The notes under the pieces: model-generated
Seen by the model: the letters and a program-made list of their open reading frames with translations, nothing else
What the model was told of the DNA's origin: nothing
Database searches by the model: none
In this document: in pieces, positions 3,711-11,773 of the stretch
Layout of the letters: each line of letters starts with the position of its first letter
Numbering within the stretch: the stretch's first letter is position 1
DNA from: an uncultured Lachnospiraceae bacterium
GTDB lineage: Bacteria > Bacillota > Clostridia > Lachnospirales > Lachnospiraceae
NCBI GenBank assembly: GCA_947627365.1
Contig: CANQVT010000010.1
Span: forward strand, 1 to 61,560
Direction: 5' to 3'
DNA length: 61,560 bases
Translations under genes and position numbers: made by a program

Positions 3711-6086
3711 TTACCAGATGGATACCCGATCCTCAGGGGCAACCCACATTCCGTCACCTTCGGTGATGCCGTAGGTCTCGTAGAACTCGTCAAAGTTCGG
3801 AAGCAGCGCATTGACGCGGACACTGTCCAGGCTGTGATAGTCGCTCGCCGCGTCCATTTCCAGCACCGGACGGTAAATCGCGCTCATCCACAGGCGCGCC
3901 CAGCTCTCAAACATCTCCGCGTAGTTGAAATCCTCCTTCCGGGACGCAAGCTCCAGCGCGACCGCCATGCCGCCTAAATCGGCGGTGTTCTCGGTGAGCG
4001 TCAGCAGCCCGTTCATCGGAATCGCGGGACCCTCCTCCCGGCCGTCGTAGTACGCAACGACCTTCTGGCAGCGCTCGGCAAACGCGGCCGCGTCCTCCCC
4101 CGTCCACCAGTTGACCACGTTTCCGTTTTCGTCGTACTGCGAACCCTGGCTATCAAACGCGTGACTGAGCTCGTGGCCGATGACGACTCCGAGCGCGCCT
4201 AGGTTCTGCTCATAGGACGCGTCCTTGCTGTACGCACCGGGCACCTGCAGGAAAGCCGCATAGATCGTCACATCATTGTACGTGGAGGTATAGTTTGCGT
4301 TCAGGGTCTGCGGGGGATAGAGCCATTCGCTCCGGTCCACCTCCTGCCCTTCATACCTCTGGACGTCCTTCTGGTTCGCGTCCTCGATCGTCATCACGTT
4401 CTCCAGGAGGGACCCGCCGTCCTCATAGCTCCTAAGCTCCATGCTGTCAAGCGGTACCTCGGGGTATTCGTCGGGAGCTCCGACCTTGATGCCCATCGTG
4501 TCGAGCTTTTTGAGCGCCTTTTCCTTTGTCGCATCGCTCATCCAGTCGAGTCCCTGAATCCTCTCGCGGTAGATATCGATCATCTCATTGATCATCTCGG
4601 TGATGTCCGCCTTCATCTCGTCATCGACGTATTTGTTCGCGTACAGCTCCCCGACATAGGCCGCGACCTGGGTGTTGACGAACCGCGCCGCGTTTTCCTC
4701 ATCACTGAGCGAGCCGACGACGCCGGTCTGAGCCGCGCTGTAATCCTTTTTCACCTGCACAAGCTCATCGCTCAGCACCTCCGCATAGCTGTCGAGCAGG
4801 AGATACTTGAAGTAATCTTTCAAAGCATCCAGGTTTTGGTTGTCGAGCAGTCCGGCAAGCGCCTCCATCGCGCCGACGTCCATGACGAGGAATTTATCCT
4901 TATTCTTAAGGCTGCTCTTGTCGAACAGCACATTCATGTCCACGTTCTGGAACACGTCGCAGATCTCGTCGAGCGTGTAGATGTTGTAGGTCTTATTCAC
5001 ATCGATCACTTCCGTCAGCCCCAGGCTTCCCTCAGCGATCTTCGCATCGAGCGCGAAAACATTCTCGAACGCCTCCTGTGCCTCCTCCTCGGAGTAGCCG
5101 ATCAACTGAAACAGCGCAGTCACATAATCGCGGAGCTTCTCTTTTCCGTTCTCATCGTTGCCCTCATACATATCCTTCACGTTGATTACTTTGGTTGTGA
5201 AAAGATCAATATAATGCGTCGAATCCCGGGAGTCCAGGAAAACCGCGAACGCCGCGACCTTGCTAAACGCCCTCGTCCCGACAAGATCTGCAACATCCGT
5301 CGCCGCTTCGACCTCATCAAGGTACGGCTTGAGCGGCTCGTAGCCCTGCGCGTTTCTCGCGTCTTTGTTCAGATAGTTCTCGTAGAGGGTCTTGATCTTA
5401 CCCGCCTTGGAGGCCTTATCCTGCTCCGCCGCCGCTGTCTGTGCGATCAGTTCGTTGATCTGCTGGTCGATGAGGTTGGTGCGCGCGTTTCCGATCATGG
5501 TCTGCCCCTCCGGGATGACGATGGTGTCGAGCGCCTCTTTGTTGACCGCCTGGTAGAAATCATCCTTCAGGTTCGTACCGTACAGGCGGTACATGCGGCG
5601 AATGTAGTGATCCATCTCATCGGCCGTGACAGGATCATCGGCTCCTAAGATACCCTCTTCCTTCTGCTCGATGATCCCCGCCGCAAACAGGTCGGCAAGC
5701 TCCGCGGCAGCCCACTCCGGGACATCCGTAAACTCCGGCTGCGTGATCGCGAGATAGACGTTGTTGCCCTTGATCTCCGGGACGCCGCCGAACGCACGCA
5801 CCAGCATGACAAGCGCCTCCGTGCGCGTCACCGGCTTCTCCGTGTCCGTGTCCTCGAAGCCCTCCATCAGCTGCTCCTGCGTCGCCTCCGGATTGTTGTA
5901 ATCGTCCGCCGCAGTCAGCAGCATCTCGCAGGCCTGAGCGCGCGTTATGGATTCGGCAGGCGTGGTCTCGTCAACATCTATCACCACTTCCGTCTGCGCC
6001 TCTTCCGCCGCAAGCACCACGCCCGCGGGCATTGCCCCAAGCGTCATCGCAGACGCGAGGAGCAGCGCGACCAGTTTTCTTTTCAT
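3711..6086 (-). CDS. Secreted M13 (neprilysin-like) metallopeptidase with SLH-type N-terminus
   Basis: A zinc endopeptidase of the M13 family (neprilysin, bacterial PepO), which cuts peptides rather than folded proteins. The zinc site VVIGHELSHAFD (HExxH) and the second motif ENTADLGG are intact, as is the upstream NANYTSTYN segment; the protein ends in VSIW, close to the family's C-terminal Trp. Residues 1-26 form a signal peptide (MKRKLVALLLASAMTLGAMP). About residues 45-175 contain SLH-like repeats (SITRAQACEMLLTA, PVTRTEALVMLVRAFGG, PEFTDVPEWAAAELADLFAAG), which normally hold proteins on the cell wall. So it is probably a surface-bound peptidase. Start at 6086 follows GGGAGAAA. It lies 48 nt behind the AIM24 gene and probably shares its repeat-controlled promoter. 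Confidence 0.9.
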   Translation of the reverse strand: MKRKLVALLLASAMTLGAMPAGVVLAAEEAQTEVVIDVDETTPAESITRAQACEMLLTAADDYNNPEATQEQLMEGFEDTDTEKPVTRTEALVMLVRAFGGVPEIKGNNVYLAITQPEFTDVPEWAAAELADLFAAGIIEQKEEGILGADDPVTADEMDHYIRRMYRLYGTNLKDDFYQAVNKEALDTIVIPEGQTMIGNARTNLIDQQINELIAQTAAAEQDKASKAGKIKTLYENYLNKDARNAQGYEPLKPYLDEVEAATDVADLVGTRAFSKVAAFAVFLDSRDSTHYIDLFTTKVINVKDMYEGNDENGKEKLRDYVTALFQLIGYSEEEAQEAFENVFALDAKIAEGSLGLTEVIDVNKTYNIYTLDEICDVFQNVDMNVLFDKSSLKNKDKFLVMDVGAMEALAGLLDNQNLDALKDYFKYLLLDSYAEVLSDELVQVKKDYSAAQTGVVGSLSDEENAARFVNTQVAAYVGELYANKYVDDEMKADITEMINEMIDIYRERIQGLDWMSDATKEKALKKLDTMGIKVGAPDEYPEVPLDSMELRSYEDGGSLLENVMTIEDANQKDVQRYEGQEVDRSEWLYPPQTLNANYTSTYNDVTIYAAFLQVPGAYSKDASYEQNLGALGVVIGHELSHAFDSQGSQYDENGNVVNWWTGEDAAAFAERCQKVVAYYDGREEGPAIPMNGLLTLTENTADLGGMAVALELASRKEDFNYAEMFESWARLWMSAIYRPVLEMDAASDYHSLDSVRVNALLPNFDEFYETYGITEGDGMWVAPEDRVSIW

Positions 6087-6134
6087 GGGTGTTTCTCCCT
6101 TCACTACTAAGATATGTCTCTGTCCCGCCAGAAA

Positions 6135-6818
6135 TTATGAATTCGAAGACGGGAAGTATGCTCTCAGAACGCCCGCCACGTTAGCCAGCGGAAGCGTCTG
6201 CAGCCATACATGGCCCGGTCCGGTAATCACGGTGTTGAAGAAGCCCTCGCCGCCGAACAGCTTGTTCTTCACGCCCGCCACCGTCTTGATATCAAGATTG
6301 CAGGTCGCGGTCATCGCAGCCAGATGCCCGGTGTCGACCAGGATCTGCTCTCCAGCCTGAAGCTCATACTCTACCACATGACCATCGAACTCGGCGAATA
6401 CGATACCCTGACCGCTTGCCTTCTGCATGATGAAGCCCTCGCCGCCAAAGAAGCCCACAGCAGCCTTCTTGCGGAAGTGCATGGACAGCGTCACACTGCT
6501 CTCCCCCGCCAGATACGCGCTCTTCTGGAAGACCATCTCGTTGCCCGGAGTGATCTCAAAGGGTACGATAGAGCCCGGGAAGGACGATGCGAAAGCGATC
6601 ATGCCGGGACCGCCCTGCGCGGTGTAGATATTCTGGAACATTTTCTCACCAGAAAAGGCTCTGCCAAGCGCTTTCCCGATCCCGCCATTCGACGTCGTCT
6701 CCATGTCCATATTGGGAGACATCCAGGACATGCCGCCTCCCTCTGTGATCATCTTTTCTCCCGCCTCGAGCTCACAAATCACTACCGGCAAGGTACCACC
6801 TTGGATGTTATACTTCAT
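6135..6818 (-). CDS. AIM24 family (TIGR00266-like) protein
   Basis: A 227-residue protein of the AIM24/DUF124 family, a single beta-rich domain with many glycines and repeated motifs such as GGIGKALGRAFSGEKMF, GGEGFIMQKASG and FGGEGFFNTVITGPG. Bacterial members have no settled biochemical role, although the mitochondrial member affects inner-membrane organisation. No signal peptide or membrane helix is visible, so it is probably cytoplasmic. The start has AAGGAGGAGAAGACA before ATG. It is the first gene of a unit that continues into the M13 peptidase, and its promoter carries the 21-bp-period direct repeats found before the small peptide genes, which links it to that regulon. Confidence 0.88.
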   Translation of the reverse strand: MKYNIQGGTLPVVICELEAGEKMITEGGGMSWMSPNMDMETTSNGGIGKALGRAFSGEKMFQNIYTAQGGPGMIAFASSFPGSIVPFEITPGNEMVFQKSAYLAGESSVTLSMHFRKKAAVGFFGGEGFIMQKASGQGIVFAEFDGHVVEYELQAGEQILVDTGHLAAMTATCNLDIKTVAGVKNKLFGGEGFFNTVITGPGHVWLQTLPLANVAGVLRAYFPSSNS

Positions 6819-6872: not shown

Positions 6873-6943
6873 ATTTTCTCATAATTCTATGTTTTTTTCA
6901 ACGAAAAAAATTCGACGTTTGTGAAATCAAATCTGACTTTTGT
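6873..6943 (-). promoter_or_regulatory. Direct-repeat promoter of the AIM24-M13 unit
   Basis: Two copies of a motif, GACGTTTGT (6914-6922) and GACTTTTGT (6935-6943), start exactly 21 bp apart, written on the plus strand. The proximal copy begins 41 bp from a weak -10 (GAAAAT on the minus strand, 6873-6878, in the context TATGAGAAAAT). The same spacing occurs at three other promoters in the window. A tandem 9-bp box with 12-bp spacer resembles sites of LytTR-type activators. Confidence 0.6.
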
Positions 6944-7001
6944 GCAATGGAAAAAAATGAAAAAGCCGCCAAATGGTCAGGGGGATCTGCCAAAACGCTG
7001 C

Positions 7002-9050
7002 TCAGGCGTTCACCAGCATCGTCTGGATGTCGTAGGACAAGGTGACGCCGCTCCCCGCATAGATCTTGTAAAACTGGTTTACCACCCTGTCTGCTACCAT
7101 TCTTCCGTTCTCGAGATTCGTGTCCACCAGCGTCACGATGTACTGCAGGCTGCTGTACCGGCTGCCCACATCCACCATCCGCAGAGAATACGCGGCAGCG
7201 ATCTCCAGCGTCGACATCGCGTCCTCACACGCGCTGTTGTCCAGAGAATCCGGATTCTCGCTTCCGATCGTATAGAGGATCGTCTGCACCATCTGCCCCT
7301 TACGCTTGACGCAGCGGGACAGATAGCTGTAGAGATTCGGGAATTCCTCGTAGGGCACCCGGAAAAGTCCGCGATTCTCATCCATATTGCCTTCCAGCAC
7401 GCGGCGGATGTGGTCGAGGTCCGTCCCCGGCCTTTCCGACGACGCTCTGCCGGCAGAATCACGCCGAAAGAATCGGCAGGAATTTTTGCCGTTTTCCTTC
7501 ACATAATACAGCGCCTTGTCCGCGTTGCCATACAGGGTCAGGAAGCTTCTGCCCTCCGCCGGACACAGGGTAATTCCTGCGGAGATGTGCGTGAGATTCT
7601 CCATCTCGATCTCTTTTAGGCTTGCCGCAAAGGAGTCCACGATGCTTTTCACCTTCCCAAGCAGCGTCTCCCGGTTCACCTCGTCCGTGTAGAACACGAC
7701 AAATTCGTCTCCTCCCATGCGGAAAAGAACGTCCTTGTCCTCCACATTGGCGGCCAGGGCGGCAGCAAGCAGCTTCAGGACCTTATCCCCCATCAGATGT
7801 CCGTATGTATCGTTTACATTTCGAAAATCATCCAGATCCACGATGACCATCGCGCCCTTATGCGCTTCTGCCAGAAGTCCGTCGATGGCCTTCTCGCCGT
7901 AGCCGCGATTGTGCACTCCGGTCAGGGAGTCGAGCGCGTTCTTCTCCGTACCGTACTCCGAGAGGATCTGGTTGACCAGCGCAGTTTTCTCGTCTACGAT
8001 GTTCCACTGCTCATTCGCGGCGTCGTCTCCCTCTCTCCTGGTCTCCGGCGGAAGATAGAAATTCTCGCTCAGCATCCCCACAAACACATGGGCAAGATGC
8101 GGATCAAACTGTGTCCCGGAGCAGCGCTCAAACTCCGCTATCACTCTCTGGTTCGGCAGCTTGGCCCGGTAAATGCGGTTCGACGTCATCGCGTCGTAGG
8201 CGTCCGCGATTGCGATGATCCTCGCGCAGTACGGAATCTCCTCTCCCGCCAGGCCAAACGGATATCCCTTCCCATCGTAGCGTTCATGATGGTAGAGCGC
8301 CCCGTCGGCTACGCCCGGGATCATGCGGATGTTTTTCAGAATCTCACCGCCGATCACCGGATGCTTCTTGATCTGTACAAACTCCTCATCGCTTAAGCGG
8401 CTCGGCTTATTCAGGATCGAATCCGGCACACCGATCTTGCCGATGTCGTGGAGCAGTCCGATGTTATAGATGTTGCGCACCTCTTCCTCGCTCCAGCCCA
8501 GGCGCTTCGCGATCTCCTTCGAGCACTTGGCGACACGTACGGAGTGTCCCGAGGTGTACGCGTCCTTGGCATCGATCGTATTCGCGATCGTCAAAATCGA
8601 ATTCAGGGACAGCTTTTCCAGCAGCTTGCTCTTCTCCTCAAGCTTATCCTCCAGGTCTACCCGGAGGCCGTACAGCTCGATCAGGCGGCTGATCCGGCTC
8701 TTGACCGTCATCGGCACAAACGGCTTGGCAATAAAGTCGGCAGCGCCCATCTCGAAAAATTCCTTCTCCGTCTCGGGCGTAAAATCGGCCGTCAGGATAA
8801 TGACCGGAATCTTCGCCCAGGCCGGGTTTTCCCGTATCTTCGCCATCGTCTCCGCGCCATCCATCTCCGGCATGCGGAAATCGAGCAGAATCAACTTTGG
8901 CTCGTATTTCTCCAGAAGTTCCAGCGCCTGCTTTCCCGAGTCCGCCGAGACGACGTGGTAATCGTCCTTCAGGATCCGTTCCGCGAATTTTCGATTGACC
9001 GGGCTATCGTCCACGACAAGAACGTCTATCTTCTCTAACTGTTCTGGCAT
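7002..9050 (-). CDS. Response regulator with HD-GYP and GGDEF domains (c-di-GMP turnover)
   Basis: Domain order: CheY-like receiver (residues about 8-125, acidic pair DD14-15, phosphoacceptor D57 in LLDFRMP, KPF), HD-GYP phosphodiesterase domain (about 150-340, with HDIGKIG and HHERYDGKGYP complete), then GGDEF domain (about 375-535, RMGGDEFVVFY intact), then about 130 unassigned residues. Both catalytic motifs look active, so it could make and degrade cyclic di-GMP under control of one phosphorylation signal. The product-inhibition motif RxxD before GGDEF is changed (EDKD). There is no DNA-binding domain and no kinase gene nearby. The start follows GGAGGAGAAAAC. Its promoter has three copies of the 21-bp-period repeat shared with the neighbouring small peptide genes. 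Confidence 0.93.
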   Translation of the reverse strand: MPEQLEKIDVLVVDDSPVNRKFAERILKDDYHVVSADSGKQALELLEKYEPKLILLDFRMPEMDGAETMAKIRENPAWAKIPVIILTADFTPETEKEFFEMGAADFIAKPFVPMTVKSRISRLIELYGLRVDLEDKLEEKSKLLEKLSLNSILTIANTIDAKDAYTSGHSVRVAKCSKEIAKRLGWSEEEVRNIYNIGLLHDIGKIGVPDSILNKPSRLSDEEFVQIKKHPVIGGEILKNIRMIPGVADGALYHHERYDGKGYPFGLAGEEIPYCARIIAIADAYDAMTSNRIYRAKLPNQRVIAEFERCSGTQFDPHLAHVFVGMLSENFYLPPETRREGDDAANEQWNIVDEKTALVNQILSEYGTEKNALDSLTGVHNRGYGEKAIDGLLAEAHKGAMVIVDLDDFRNVNDTYGHLMGDKVLKLLAAALAANVEDKDVLFRMGGDEFVVFYTDEVNRETLLGKVKSIVDSFAASLKEIEMENLTHISAGITLCPAEGRSFLTLYGNADKALYYVKENGKNSCRFFRRDSAGRASSERPGTDLDHIRRVLEGNMDENRGLFRVPYEEFPNLYSYLSRCVKRKGQMVQTILYTIGSENPDSLDNSACEDAMSTLEIAAAYSLRMVDVGSRYSSLQYIVTLVDTNLENGRMVADRVVNQFYKIYAGSGVTLSYDIQTMLVNA

Positions 9051-9092
9051 GTTTTCTCCTCCCGCCTTCTCTGTATGCCTGTGTCCTCAGAT

Positions 9093-9183
9093 ATTTTATC
9101 ATAGAATTAAATATTCTCAAGCATTTCTTGATGACATTTATGAACTTAAACCTGACGTTTGTGAAATCAAACCTGACGTTTAT
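9093..9183 (-). promoter_or_regulatory. Triple direct-repeat promoter of the HD-GYP/GGDEF gene
   Basis: Three tandem copies, GACATTTAT (9133-9141), GACGTTTGT (9154-9162) and GACGTTTAT (9175-9183), are spaced exactly 21 bp. A -10 TAAAAT (minus strand, 9093-9098, context TATGATAAAAT) lies 40 bp from the nearest copy. No good -35 is visible, as expected for an activator-dependent promoter. Confidence 0.65.
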
Positions 9184-9208
9184 GAAATCGCGGAAACGAA
9201 ATAATGGG

Positions 9209-9260
9209 GAAAGAAAAGAGGACATTTTGGCAATCTGCTTTATCCGTTGCCAAAATGCCC
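9209..9260 (-). terminator. Intrinsic terminator after the first Nif11-type peptide gene
   Basis: GGGCATTTTGGCAA and TTGCCAAAATGTCC form a long stem, followed on the minus strand by CTCTTTTCTTT. Stem and loop are nearly identical to the terminator at 10571-10621, showing that whole intergenic segments were copied in this region. Confidence 0.8.
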
Positions 9261-9298
9261 TGCTTTACATGGTTTTCACGCTTCGTGCCTTCGGCGTT

Positions 9299-9526
9299 TT
9301 ATCTGCCGAAAAGACTTCCGACCCATCTCTTGATGGTATCGATGATACCTCCTCCGGCGACTGCCTCAAGCGCGTCGTCCGAGAGCTCGCCGGCAGCACC
9401 GCCAAGCTGATCAAGCAGCTCCTGAGCCTTCTCTGCTGTCACTTCCTTGCCGTACTCCTTCGCGATGGCGATGACCTCCTCCACCGTCTTGGCCTTCTGC
9501 AGCTTTGCAAGCATTTCCTCGTTCAT
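9299..9526 (-). CDS. Nif11-type leader peptide A, core GIIDTIKRWVGSLFGR
   Basis: A 75-residue peptide. Residues 1-58 resemble Nif11-type leaders of ribosomally made natural products (NEEMLAKLQKAKTVEEVIA, KEYGKEVTAEKAQELLDQLG) and end in GELSDDALEAVAGG, a double-glycine processing signal. Cleavage after GG would release about 16 residues, GIIDTIKRWVGSLFGR, a short amphipathic helix with no Cys, Ser or Thr pattern typical of modified peptides. This looks more like an unmodified signal or membrane-active peptide than a cyclised product, but that is inference. The start follows AAGGAGGAGAAGCATC. It is the last gene of a unit with peptide B and the 54-residue peptide, and is closed by a terminator. 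Confidence 0.82.
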   Translation of the reverse strand: MNEEMLAKLQKAKTVEEVIAIAKEYGKEVTAEKAQELLDQLGGAAGELSDDALEAVAGGGIIDTIKRWVGSLFGR

Positions 9527-9557
9527 GATGCTTCTCCTCCTTTTCTTCGATATATAT

Positions 9558-9578
9558 GAAACGCACTAGCATCGTTTC
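9558..9578 (-). repeat. Conserved leader hairpin, copy A
   Basis: GAAACG-N9-CGTTTC, an inverted repeat about 32 nt upstream of peptide A. The same element with the same spacing precedes peptide D, and a degenerate copy precedes peptide B, so the 5' leaders were duplicated with the genes. Confidence 0.55.
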
Positions 9579-9579
9579 C

Positions 9580-9675
9580 TTATTTTTTGCTTTCCTGACT
9601 CAATCTCATCAACCAGGATATGCTGCACCACCAGCATCCCCTGTAGCCCCAGCCCCCTGCGACTGCGGCAAGCGC
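9580..9675 (-). pseudogene. Truncated Nif11-type precursor: GG site and core only
   Basis: Minus-strand reading from 9675 gives ALAAVAGG followed by WGYRGCWWCSISWLMRL and SQESKK then a stop. ALAAVAGG is identical to the end of the leader of peptide D, and the underlying DNA (CTTGCCGCAGTCGCAGG) matches it base for base. The rest of the leader and any start codon are missing; upstream lies the 3' end of the 54-residue peptide gene. This is therefore a precursor remnant whose Trp- and Cys-rich core has survived. It was too short to be listed by length-based gene finding. Confidence 0.6.
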
Positions 9676-9687
9676 GCTCCCCCTTCC

Positions 9688-9852
9688 TTATACTAGCCGC
9701 CGCTGCCGCTGCCGGTCACGCAGACGCGCGTCTTCCTGGTCCGAACCACCATTTTCTCCGCCGACAACCGTCTCCAGCTCTTTTGTCTCCAACTCTTTCG
9801 CTTCCATCTCCTTCGCTTTTCCTAAAATTTCTTCTTTCTTTTCTTCTGACAT
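9688..9852 (-). CDS. Small double-glycine peptide, possibly frameshifted
   Basis: A 54-residue peptide starting MSEEKKEEILGKAKEM after a strong AAGGAGGAAAGTAAAA. The leader has a tandem repeat KELETKELET and ends in VVGG, a plausible double-glycine site, but is unlike the Nif11 leaders around it. In the annotated frame the tail is ENGGSDQEDARLRDRQRQRR, an odd, very basic end. Skipping one base at the GGTGGT run instead gives VVRTRKTRVCVTGSGSGG and a stop only a few codons earlier, which looks far more like a peptide core. Either a one-base frameshift has damaged the gene or the basic tail is real. Confidence 0.55.
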   Translation of the reverse strand: MSEEKKEEILGKAKEMEAKELETKELETVVGGENGGSDQEDARLRDRQRQRRLV

Positions 9853-10035
9853 TTTTACTTTCCTCCTTTTACTTTTTCCTGTTTCCATTCATGCGTTCTC
9901 TTTGCGTCCGGAAGCTCATCCGCCTCCGGAAATCTTAATTTCCTTTCTTCCTCACATCTCTTCTGGCAGTGTGATGGTCTCATGAGCTTTTCAATCTTGT
10001 CCGCCCATCCTCCTTGTCTGTTACACCCTGGCATT

Positions 10036-10326
10036 TTACCTGTCGAAAAGGGCTCCGACCCGGCTCCTGATGGTATCGACGATACCAACCCTTCTGTCCT
10101 CAGCACTCTTCATGTTTCCACCCTCGGCTCTCAGTGGTGTCGACGATACCCCTCCGGCAACTGCATCAAGCGCATCGTCCGAGAGCTCGCCGACAGCGCC
10201 GCCAAGCTGATCAAGCAACTCCTGAGCCTTCTGTGCCGTCACTTCCTTGCCGTACTCCTTCGCGATGGCGATGATCTCCTCCACCGTCCTGGCTTTCTGC
10301 AGCTTTGCAAACATTTCCTCGTTCAT
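10036..10326 (-). CDS. Nif11-type leader peptide B with extended core
   Basis: A 96-residue paralogue of peptide A. The leader is almost identical (NEEMFAKLQKARTVEEIIA through ELSDDALDAVAGG). The tail ends GIVDTIRSRVGALFDR, clearly the same helix as the core of A, but 21 residues (VSSTPLRAEGGNMKSAEDRR and one more) separate it from the GG site. At DNA level the extra 63 bases lie between two copies of GGTRTCGACGATACC, pointing to an in-frame duplication or insertion. The inserted part contains a second Gly-Gly (AEGG). The start at 10326 follows AAGGAGGAGAAACATC; longer upstream reading is not coding. First gene of the unit behind the 10457-10527 repeat promoter. Confidence 0.8.
   Translation of the reverse strand: MNEEMFAKLQKARTVEEIIAIAKEYGKEVTAQKAQELLDQLGGAVGELSDDALDAVAGGVSSTPLRAEGGNMKSAEDRRVGIVDTIRSRVGALFDR
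10073..10150. repeat. Direct repeat bordering the 63-bp insertion in peptide B
   Basis: GGTATCGACGATACC (10073-10087) and GGTGTCGACGATACC (10136-10150) are 63 bp apart, exactly 21 codons. Each is itself a near-palindrome. Peptide gene A has a single copy (GGTATCGATGATACC) at the matching place. Confidence 0.6.
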
Positions 10327-10367
10327 GATGTTTCTCCTCCTTTTCTTTTTTCTTGTTCGATATACAT

Positions 10368-10387
10368 GAAACGCGTTTACGTCGTTC
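10368..10387 (-). repeat. Conserved leader hairpin, copy B (degenerate)
   Basis: GAAACG-N9-CGTTCT before peptide B, the weaker copy of the hairpin seen before peptides A and D. Further upstream the leader shares GATACGCCGCAATGCGG and TTTGTTAGAT with the leader of peptide D. Confidence 0.4.
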
Positions 10388-10456
10388 TCCGGATTTTTGA
10401 TTTCCTGATTCTTGATACGCCGCAATGCGGACTTTGTTAGATGTCTCTCTGATTGG

Positions 10457-10527
10457 ATTATAACATGCTGGCCACTGCTTTTTGAGACCGCTAGACTGAC
10501 GTTTGTGAAATCAAACTCGACTTTTGT
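10457..10527 (-). promoter_or_regulatory. Direct-repeat promoter of the peptide B/A unit
   Basis: GACGTTTGT (10498-10506) and GACTTTTGT (10519-10527) are 21 bp apart. A perfect -10 TATAAT (minus strand, 10457-10462) lies 41 bp from the nearer copy and there is no -35 consensus. The block TTTTGAGACCGCTAGACTGACG also occurs, almost unchanged, before peptide D. Between this promoter and peptide B lies an untranslated leader of about 120 nt. Confidence 0.7.
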
Positions 10528-10570
10528 GCAATTGATGCCCAGCAGAGTGATTGGGGAAACGAGATAAGGG

Positions 10571-10621
10571 AAAGAAAAGCGGGCATTTTGGCAATCTGCT
10601 TTATCCGTTGCCAAAATGCCC
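10571..10621 (-). terminator. Intrinsic terminator after the Cys-rich Nif11-type gene
   Basis: GGGCATTTTGGCAA pairs with TTGCCAAAATGCCC around the loop CGGATAAAGCAGA, followed on the minus strand by GCTTTTCTTTCCC. It ends the D/Cys-rich peptide unit 20 bases after its last stop and is a near copy of the terminator at 9209-9260. Confidence 0.82.
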
Positions 10622-10641
10622 TGCTTTATATGGATATGTTA

Positions 10642-11037
10642 TCAGTGTATCATACAAATATTAACCGGGAATTTGTATTGCATATGCTTACATTGATAGC
10701 AATCGGTATGATAACATGAGCAGTCTCTTCCATGTTTTTTGCAGGTCCAGTCACTGCAGATGTAAAGGCCCGATACGACGAGATGTCCGTACAAATGCGC
10801 TCCCCCGCCGGCGACGGCCTCAAGCTCCGCATCTGAGAGCTCTCCGGTACCGTGAAGCTGCTTGTATATCTCCTGTGCTTCCTCCATGCTCAGCTCTTCG
10901 CCCGCTTCCTTCGCCAACGCAAGGACTTCCTCCGCTGACGCAGCGGCTTTCACCTTCTCGAAAACCTTATTCCGTTTCTCGAAAAGCTCCTGCTCGTTCC
11001 CTGTGACCGTCTTATCGGCATTGATTTTTGCTTCCAT
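10642..11037 (-). CDS. Nif11-type precursor with Cys-rich core
   Basis: A 131-residue peptide with a divergent Nif11-type leader (EEVLALAKEAGEELSMEEAQ, then GELSDAELEAVAGGG) and a core of about 53 residues. The core has seven cysteines in the pattern CSDWTCKKHGRDCSCYHTDC, then YQC and a last Cys near the end, with several His and Tyr. Such spacing fits thioether or disulfide cross-linking, or metal binding; no modifying enzyme (LanM, radical SAM, YcaO) is in the window, so the modification is unknown. The start has AAAGGTGGAAATTCT before ATG. It follows peptide D by 86 nt in one unit and is closed by the terminator at 10571-10621. Confidence 0.8.
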   Translation of the reverse strand: MEAKINADKTVTGNEQELFEKRNKVFEKVKAAASAEEVLALAKEAGEELSMEEAQEIYKQLHGTGELSDAELEAVAGGGAHLYGHLVVSGLYICSDWTCKKHGRDCSCYHTDCYQCKHMQYKFPVNICMIH

Positions 11038-11123
11038 AGAATTTCCACCTTTCTTGTGTCATTTATTGGCAATTCCGCCTTCGACAGATTCGCGGTTCTC
11101 TCCCATCCGAAACAGAGATACCA

Positions 11124-11336
11124 TCATACGTGAACAGGCATTTTTGATGGCCAAAAAATCCCCCCTGCGACTGCGGCAAGCGCGTCGTCCGAGAGCTCGC
11201 CGGCAGCACCACTGAGCTGATCGAGCAGCTCCTGAGCCTTCTGGGTCGTCACTTCCTTGCCGTACTCCTTCGCGATGGCGATGATCTCCTCCACCGTCTT
11301 GGCTTTCCGCAGTTTTGCAATCATTTCCTCGTTCAT
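11124..11336 (-). CDS. Nif11-type leader peptide D, short tail IFWPSKMPVHV
   Basis: A 70-residue peptide with the same leader as A and B (NEEMIAKLRKAKTVEEIIA to ELSDDALAAVAGG) but an 11-residue tail, IFWPSKMPVHV, that shares nothing with theirs. The tail could be a genuine short peptide or the result of a frameshift or truncation. It is the first gene behind the repeat promoter at 11629-11699. The ribosome site (AAAGGAAG) is weaker and farther from the ATG than in its relatives. Confidence 0.75.
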   Translation of the reverse strand: MNEEMIAKLRKAKTVEEIIAIAKEYGKEVTTQKAQELLDQLSGAAGELSDDALAAVAGGIFWPSKMPVHV

Positions 11337-11370
11337 TATGTCCCACTTCCTTTCTTTCTCCGATTTATAT

Positions 11371-11391
11371 GAAACGCACTTGCGTCGTTTC
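11371..11391 (-). repeat. Conserved leader hairpin, copy D
   Basis: GAAACG-N9-CGTTTC about 35 nt before peptide D, same geometry as the copy before peptide A. Could be an mRNA stability hairpin or an operator. Confidence 0.5.
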
Positions 11392-11468
11392 CCGGATTTT
11401 TGCTTTCCTGTTTTTTGATACGCCGCAATGCGGATTTTGTTAGATATTTTCCTGAAATCTCTGGCGAG

Positions 11469-11634
11469 ATTATACCATGTCCATTTTCCGAACCGTGCCC
11501 ACCTCGAAAAACCTTCGGTTTTCCTCGGTCACGGGCATTCGCCCTATGAATCTGTCATCTGACAAAACCGTCTGCAAGCAGTCGTTTTGTCATCTGACAT
11601 CTTCGCACGGCTCATTGCTTTCGCGAAGATTATA
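11469..11634. repeat. 160-bp hairpin-rich insertion in the peptide D leader
   Basis: The leader of D aligns with that of B up to GATTATACCA (11468 on), but B then continues straight into the repeat promoter while D carries about 160 extra bases and then a second GCGAAGATTATACCA (ending 11636). The extra DNA holds three hairpins: AAAACC-TTC-GGTTTT near 11511, GACAAAAC...GTTTTGTC at about 11560-11590, and ATCTTCGC...GCGAAGAT at about 11600-11631. It looks like a small structured repeat inserted with a duplicated target. No coding sequence seen in it. Confidence 0.5.
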
Positions 11635-11699
11635 CCACACTACCCACTACCTTTTGAGACCGCCAGACTGACGTTTATGAAATTAAACCTGACGTTTGT
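11629..11699 (-). promoter_or_regulatory. Direct-repeat promoter of the peptide D/Cys-rich unit
   Basis: GACGTTTAT (11670-11678) and GACGTTTGT (11691-11699) are 21 bp apart, and a TATAAT -10 (minus strand, 11629-11634) lies 41 bp from the nearer copy, the same layout as the peptide B promoter. The gap to the peptide D start is about 290 nt because of the hairpin-rich insertion. Confidence 0.68.
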
Positions 11700-11773
11700 G
11701 AAATCGCTGGTGTGCAACTTAGTAATCTATGATACCAGATCCGGCAGCACCCCTGAACAGCAGCCCGTCAACG

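Follow-up and report, generated by a model that had tools for sequence, protein, structure and literature searches.

Which regulator reads the tandem repeats that precede four transcription units of an uncultured Lachnospiraceae bacterium, and are these repeats the only promoters of the units? The stretch analysed here, called the window throughout, comprises positions 1 to 61,560 of contig CANQVT010000010.1 (assembly GCA_947627365.1). All four units lie on its - strand: an AIM24-family gene followed by an M13 peptidase gene; a gene for a receiver/HD-GYP/GGDEF protein, taken to be an enzyme of cyclic di-GMP (c-di-GMP); a first peptide unit encoding peptide A, a ComC-like peptide and peptide B; and a second encoding peptide D and a Cys-rich peptide. 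A sequence-only reading had described the repeats as boxes of a LytTR-type activator and the units as a self-contained system of peptide signalling or antagonism. Our comparison points to a LytTR response regulator encoded with a sensor kinase on another contig of the same genome (C20). It would act on the boxes directly and, through an extracytoplasmic function (ECF) sigma factor, on a second promoter of the peptide genes. We give this cascade from kinase and regulator to ECF sigma factor to peptides, together with further direct targets, a probability of about 0.8. The signalling-or-antagonism reading of the window is thereby partly supported, while induction of the peptides and its purpose are what we infer.

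Box arrays and the regulator that accompanies them

The boxes follow the pattern GAC(G/T/A)TTT(G/A)T on the + strand and start at 6914/6935, 9133/9154/9175, 10498/10519 and 11670/11691, two or three per unit and spaced by exactly 21 bp. These are the coordinates reported earlier, and a scan of both strands of the window, with each box permitted two departures at most from GACGTTTGT, returned no other 21-bp pairs. The repeated unit had been given as 9 bp, but the conserved half-site spans about 16 bp (TGACKTTTRTGNAATC), followed by a 5-bp spacer. The previous measurement of 40-41 bp, which took the 9-bp box and the far edge of the -10 as its limits, agrees with this: 34, 33, 34 and 34 bp separate the end of the 16-bp half-site from the start of the -10 in the four arrays. 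The same geometry was seen in 38 arrays from this genome and seven relatives of the genus (34 two-box, three three-box and one six-box; one overlapping row removed): TGn followed by at least four of the six positions of TATAAT lies at 33-34 bp on the transcript side of 34, and on the opposite side no single offset collected more than three matches. Judged by the position of the -10, 34 of the 38 arrays read against transcription. A -10 lacking a good -35 had been described for all units; this does not hold for the AIM24 (TTGAAA) and HD-GYP (TTGAGA) promoters, where a -35 of fair quality stands 16-17 bp before the -10.

Across the genome (2.82 Mb, 104 contigs, 84.5% complete), ten box pairs were found with up to three mismatches, against one for the reversed control pattern. 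Seven of the ten have 0-1 mismatch, namely five overlapping pairs from the window arrays plus C20:23408 and C88:3740, the latter preceding a small hydrophobic protein; the other three have 3 mismatches. Beyond the window, the genome has only these two good box sites.

Six LytTR genes are present in this genome, none of them on the window's contig. The regulator on C20 (C20:37576-38292) matches PF00072 (57.9 bits) and PF04397 (32.9 bits), both above cut-off, and its residues D54 and K102 are invariant across 15 aligned orthologues. Just downstream lies a sensor kinase gene with a GHKL domain (HATPase_c_5, 52.2 bits) and about seven hydrophobic helices. Farther along the same strand, within about 17.6 kb, follow an NHLM exporter with a C39 peptidase, a Nif11 peptide, a box pair, the ECF sigma factor and a radical SAM gene. 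The exporter scores 951.7 bits with TIGR03796 and 727.3 bits with TIGR03797, above the cut-offs, and its HlyD-like part 37.1 against a required 156.2, below; the radical SAM C-methyltransferase, of the type acting on ribosomally synthesised and post-translationally modified peptides (RiPPs), exceeds the cut-off of TIGR03975. Downstream STAS and SpoIIE-like genes were named from sequence by eye. The LytTR regulator, the C39-peptidase exporter and the kinase for which a genome search had been proposed are thus all present and near each other. The window is not self-contained. Elsewhere in the genome, a LytTR regulator on C5 and a gene closely paralogous to that for the window's receiver/HD-GYP/GGDEF protein are divergently arranged (L002:1453-2184 and 2329 onward); no box pair was found in the fetched locus L002. 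The two families seem to be associated more than once.

Does the box track the regulator? Among 47 genomes of the genus (labelled G000 upward), orthologues of the C20 regulator with at least 76% identity occur in seven, and all seven carry boxes with 0-1 mismatch. In the other 40, such a pair was found only once, in G044; six more genomes have 2-mismatch matches only, which is control level (24 control matches over the 47). Three boxes stand directly upstream of the regulator gene in G033, and in G036 a boxed AIM24 gene is followed by the regulator and then the kinase. More distant regulators (43-64% identity) occur in a further 13 genomes of the genus. For some of these, an unbiased look at the upstream DNA revealed a different box, ACCATTCGTG, repeated at 22 bp. 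This pair has 24 matches in 12 genomes of the genus, 10 of them among the 13, with none in the control; in six cases, every one of them reversed, a regulator gene begins some 60-75 bp further on.

A regulator-alignment scan of named genomes yielded at least 80 loci, many from metagenome-assembled genomes labelled Lapin, an isolate name from which the rabbit gut is probably the source of the group. Fifty-five regulator loci lie outside the genus (L099-L153), and a further 25 hold distant regulators (L154-L178), including L162, a truncated close relative. A motif-free search for direct repeats in the 250 bp before the regulator of 53 loci gave 21 as the best period in 25 and 22 in eight; repeats of at least 12/15 identity numbered 16 and 5, respectively, where 530 control windows taken from these loci predict 1.0 and 0.2. 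For the assignment of box types, a TGAC-type matrix was derived from 35 of the 55 outside loci, picked by hand, with 60 half-sites from 30 regulator promoters as its training set. From 76 loci, 67 promoters were retained after removal of duplicates, partial hits and those with fewer than 120 bases upstream: 33 are TGAC-type, 14 ACC-type and 20 show no box. All 47 boxed promoters are reversed and none is forward, whereas boxes were called in 15 of 608 random control windows. The orientation against transcription remarked on earlier is therefore general. Outside the genus, 32 boxed regulator promoters gave 25 matches to an extended -10 at 33-35 bp.

On the regulator tree, box type changes 17 times, compared with 29.0 after shuffling, and none of 200 shuffles was as low. 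A single branch with 47 rows contains all 33 TGAC-type promoters, and a second, with 18 rows, contains 13 of the 14 ACC-type promoters; the exception, L152, sits on a long branch. As far as sequence comparison goes, box type follows the clade of the regulator. This, together with the co-occurrence of box and regulator, agrees with the LytTR-type regulon proposed earlier. In the 55 outside loci, a kinase lies within 1 kb of the regulator in 47, NHLM ABC1 (79-97% identity) occurs in 7, AIM24 in 4 and M13 in 5. Double-glycine peptides were found in eight of these loci (62 peptides, up to 20 per locus) and, by the same detection rule, in none of the 25 distant-regulator loci. L107 and L148 each have a box pair ahead of an M13 peptidase; the two are closely related and count as one case.

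A second promoter and an ECF sigma factor

All four units carry the boxes, as described, but a single repeat-based promoter is not the whole account: a second promoter of the two peptide units had been missed (Table). Since these units also carry a promoter of ECF-sigma type, more than one promoter type is in use. The motif, TAACANAA-N10-GGCGTATCAA, lies downstream of the box promoter, within TAACAAAATCCGCATTGCGGCGTATCAA-like DNA common to the peptide units in which AAC stands exactly 19 bp ahead of CGTATCA. We take this AAC/CGT-type motif to have the look of an ECF sigma promoter.

The window's genome holds eight such sites, before seven double-glycine peptide units and the ECF operon, against one in the control. 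Its AIM24, HD-GYP and C88 promoters have boxes, yet no second motif among the genus-wide matches. From these matches, the subset of 42 sites in fetched loci was placed in context: 33 precede a double-glycine peptide gene (31 assigned by script, and window peptide D and its G042 counterpart by position), three the ECF operon and one a radical SAM gene, with nothing recognised behind five. With 0-1 mismatch the motif occurs in eight of the 47 genomes (G000, G033, G035, G036, G038, G039, G040 and G042), and at 2 mismatches only in ten others. An orthologue of the ECF sigma factor is found in seven of the 47, the same set minus G033. The G036 protein matches PF04542, PF04545 and PF08281 above cut-off and is 77% identical to its orthologue in the window's genome. 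G039 has the sigma factor and the second motif, yet neither a close regulator nor boxes; because sigma and motif occur alone there, the second motif goes with the ECF sigma factor and the two layers are separable. This co-occurrence suggests that the sigma factor recognises TAACANAA-N10-GGCGTATCAA.

Several minor observations touch this layer. The first gene of the ECF operon, before the sigma gene, encodes a 65-residue protein (L017:5542-6400 on C20, L058, L074), the middle part of which ends in LDDSELELNAAGD, like a double-glycine leader with an altered GG; it is possibly a leader-derived partner of the sigma factor. At peptide D, about 190 bp separate the box promoter from the ECF promoter (11443-11628 between them), compared with about 55-60 bp at the G042 counterpart; an insertion that includes a second TATACCA repeat has therefore apparently occurred in the window. 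One Nif11 peptide, whose core contains Cys (YASVYVKDVGYVLYEKDRKSAECTATCFWCG...; L028, L212 on C16, L221, L222, L225), has the ECF motif and no box. This peptide is near-identical across four species, and it would make a good target for study.

The proposed cascade, its alternatives and known systems

In the mechanism we propose, the boxes would be binding sites of the C20 LytTR response regulator, paired with its GHKL kinase, and two or more regulator protomers would occupy the direct repeat of 21 bp that precedes an extended -10. Direct targets would be the AIM24-M13 unit, the c-di-GMP enzyme, the two Nif11 peptide units, the small hydrophobic protein and the ECF sigma operon. The sigma factor would then read the second promoter, both at its own operon and at double-glycine peptide genes, boxed or unboxed; peptide units with both promoters would give the cascade a coherent feed-forward arm. 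By analogy, the peptides would be cut after Gly-Gly and exported through the NHLM transporter and its C39 peptidase. Radical SAM enzymes probably modify a number of them, and the secreted M13 peptidase may trim, process or destroy peptides. Comparative evidence supports the box, the promoter geometry, the links of box to regulator and of second motif to ECF sigma factor, and the make-up of the regulon. The regulator presumably binds this DNA, activating rather than repressing, and the product roles would be as outlined; that the kinase senses an exported peptide is a natural guess.

Several findings weigh against this cascade. In the window's genome, the regulator's own promoter lacks a good box pair and shows just one degenerate half-site, and no box was detected in 20 of the 67 regulator promoters. 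G044 has a box without a close regulator, G017 and G018 have the ACC box without a regulator match, and G009, G014 and G046 show the reverse. The seven genomes with GAC boxes may be one clade, in which case their co-occurrence with the regulator is not independent, and the promoter counts are partly circular, as 30 of the promoters counted had also served to train the TGAC matrix; the motif-free repeat search is unaffected by this circularity. Boxes are missing in front of five of the nine Nif11 matches in the window's genome. G033 (71% complete) has the second motif without an ECF sigma match, and the spacing of that motif was seen before none of the 62 double-glycine peptides outside the genus, so the sigma layer may be confined to the genus or rely on a different motif elsewhere. 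As to G044, its lone box lies on a contig of 3,255 bases, a 75-base stretch of which is 92% identical to C20 of the window's genome, and misbinning is possible.

Might something other than LytTR read the boxes? A period of about 21 bp is shared by the two half-sites of AraC-type proteins, and a regulator of this kind could bind here with the LytTR pair merely as another target. With 16 bp, the half-site does exceed the 9 bp of a classical LytTR box, and it is reversed relative to the Pln sites, as these appear in an extract of the plantaricin study (PMC2714321). The box core, however, is that of known Pln repeats, namely the natural variants PlnG GACATTTAT and PlnE GACGTTAAG, which the same extract prints in transcription direction (PMC2714321), and the box type shifts with the clade of the C20-type regulator. 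No AraC gene was seen tracking the boxes, though no AraC search was made. We consider such a regulator improbable. Still harder to credit is that the repeats are repetitive DNA spread by duplication, devoid of regulatory meaning: conserved spacers (AAACC) and the array of six copies would fit, but neither the fixed distance to the extended -10, within the genus and in the loci of other families, nor the presence of only two good sites beyond the window is what duplication would leave.

A much closer contest concerns the input. The system could sense envelope stress, host compounds or a metabolite, the peptides being output only. The STAS and SpoIIE-like genes suggest other inputs, 47 of the 55 outside regulator loci show no double-glycine peptide, and the genes behind ACC-type sites in the vicinity of regulators encode surface proteins rather than peptides. 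On the other hand, a GHKL domain behind some seven hydrophobic helices is the layout of AgrC/ComD-like kinases, and exporter, peptides and regulator share one neighbourhood. We place this possibility just short of even odds. The cascade from regulator to sigma factor to peptides could also be part of a larger picture, to which we lean less than to its negation: an undescribed, widespread form of communication among gut Clostridia, in which NHLM-exported Nif11/NHLP peptides would be both signal and effector, the kinase would sense a processed peptide, the LytTR regulator would act on reversed boxes, the ECF sigma factor would lock in production and the M13 peptidase would end the response. PepO is known to remove streptococcal pheromones. 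If this picture were true, Nif11 peptides would be partly pheromones, not antibiotics alone.

How does this arrangement compare with known systems? Nif11/NHLP RiPP clusters with NHLM exporters were reportedly described by Haft et al. in 2010. A Nif11-processing transporter belongs to the lah cluster of a Lachnospiraceae, to go by a partial text (PMC6363468). As far as that text extends, such clusters likewise have Nif11 double-glycine leaders, a C39 peptidase transporter and many peptides with varied cores; different here are the regulatory wiring and a radical SAM C-methyltransferase in place of a lanthipeptide synthetase. The wiring itself resembles plantaricin (PlnABCD) and Blp control in its LytTR regulator, polytopic GHKL kinase, double-glycine leaders and C39 exporter. 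In the extract mentioned above, the Pln repeats are 9 bp long with 12-bp spacers, upstream of -35/-10, with the consensus TACGTTAAT (PMC2714321). Both systems thus have direct repeats of 21-bp period before -35/-10, and the core here is identical to some pln repeats of that extract. The present system differs in its opposite-strand boxes, Nif11/NHLP leaders, NHLM exporter pair, radical SAM enzymes and ECF sigma tier; in place of the inducer peptide it offers candidate double-glycine peptides, which may act as inducers. The LytTR regulatory systems HdrRM and BrsRM, according to a portion of the relevant paper, are autoregulated through direct repeats, separated by 12 bp and situated some 10 bp ahead of the -35 (PMC6193735). 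They have a membrane inhibitor and, in that portion, neither receiver nor kinase, unlike the response regulator and kinase found here. Sigma control of RiPP genes also has precedents in excerpted accounts of actinomycete lantibiotics, MibX-MibW and PspX (PMC6001450). There, as predicted here, a cluster-linked ECF sigma factor drives the RiPP genes; compared with those accounts, our sigma gene is boxed by a two-component system, and no adjacent membrane anti-sigma gene was recognised.

A term search of a review of two-component quorum sensing found neither Nif11 nor direct repeats mentioned (PMC8895600). In open-access full texts, a body of literature outside which most subscription papers lie, LytTR together with Nif11 gave no match, and 'ECF sigma factor' with Nif11 was met only in the context of methanobactin. 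Literature searches for reversed LytTR boxes, and for Nif11 in connection with pheromones or kinases, returned nothing relevant. New here, then, would be a second promoter tier co-occurring with an ECF sigma factor and reversed LytTR boxes with Nif11 peptides, in a system that by analogy may work like Blp/Pln control. Among bacterial peptides, those with Nif11 and NHLP leaders form a very large class. Linking a group of them to a defined regulator, DNA box, sigma factor and promoter predicts when the peptides are made and which genes act alongside, across several families of Clostridia. The reversed boxes also raise a mechanistic question, namely how activation works when a LytTR dimer turns its opposite face to RNA polymerase.

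Genes behind the boxes

Profile matches and motifs agree with the earlier gene calls of the window (AIM24, M13, receiver/HD-GYP/GGDEF and the peptides; Table).

Table. Positions of genes, box arrays and promoters in the window.
Feature	Position	Strand	Basis
AIM24-family protein	6135..6818	-	PF01987, 241.5 bits
M13 (PepO-like) metallopeptidase, predicted secreted	3711..6104	-	PF05649, PF01431
Receiver/HD-GYP/GGDEF protein	7002..9050	-	HD..GYP and GGDEF motifs present
Peptide A, Nif11-like double-glycine leader	10036..10332	-	TIGR03798, 26.7 bits, below 32.3 cut-off
Small peptide, ComC-like double-glycine leader	9688..9888	-	PF03047, 17.7 of 20.4 bits, weak, below cut-off
Peptide B, Nif11 leader, short core past GG	9299..9526	-	TIGR03798, 33.5 bits, above 32.3 cut-off
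Peptide D, Nif11-like leader	11124..11336	-	TIGR03798, 30.7 of 32.3 bits, just below cut-off
Cys-rich peptide, Nif11 leader	10642..11037	-	TIGR03798, 35.6 bits, above cut-off
Box pair of AIM24-M13 unit, two 16-bp half-sites 21 bp apart	6913..6949	+	motif search
-10 GAAAAT after TG, AIM24-M13 unit, 34 bp from boxes	6873..6878	-	array geometry
Three boxes of receiver/HD-GYP/GGDEF gene	9132..9189	+	motif search
-10 TAAAAT after TG, receiver/HD-GYP/GGDEF gene, 33 bp from boxes	9093..9098	-	array geometry
Box pair of peptide A/ComC-like/B unit	10497..10533	+	motif search
-10 TATAAT, box promoter of peptide A/ComC-like/B unit	10457..10462	-	array geometry
Box pair of peptide D/Cys-rich unit	11669..11705	+	motif search
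-10 TATAAT, box promoter of peptide D/Cys-rich unit	11629..11634	-	array geometry
Second promoter, ECF-sigma type, TAACAAAG-N10-GGCGTATCAA, 1 mismatch, peptide A unit	10412..10439	-	
Second promoter, ECF-sigma type, 0 mismatches, peptide D unit	11415..11442	-	

The M13 peptidase has an HELSH (HExxH) motif, a signal-like hydrophobic N terminus and a sub-threshold SLH match. The ComC-like peptide is 66 residues long, or 54 if begun at an inner ATG. An amphipathic helix in the core of peptide B, which would have supported a pheromone role, was not significant, with a fraction of 0.094 of shuffles scoring as high.

A small protein of two similar hydrophobic halves (MKKFSNAIWSA...) is encoded near position 3740 of C88 (L019) and in L058, L062, L068 and L076; in several species it stands behind boxes or after a boxed ECF gene, and it could be an immunity protein. 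In two relatives, the place of peptide A and its neighbours is taken by a radical SAM gene (L073:7993-9384 in G042, L060:4175-5674 in G036), which appears to be missing from the window; in G042 it lies directly behind box and ECF promoters. G036 also has a gene for a CPBP (Rce1-like) protease between two boxed peptide units (L060:6179-6856), and proteins of this type often confer bacteriocin immunity.

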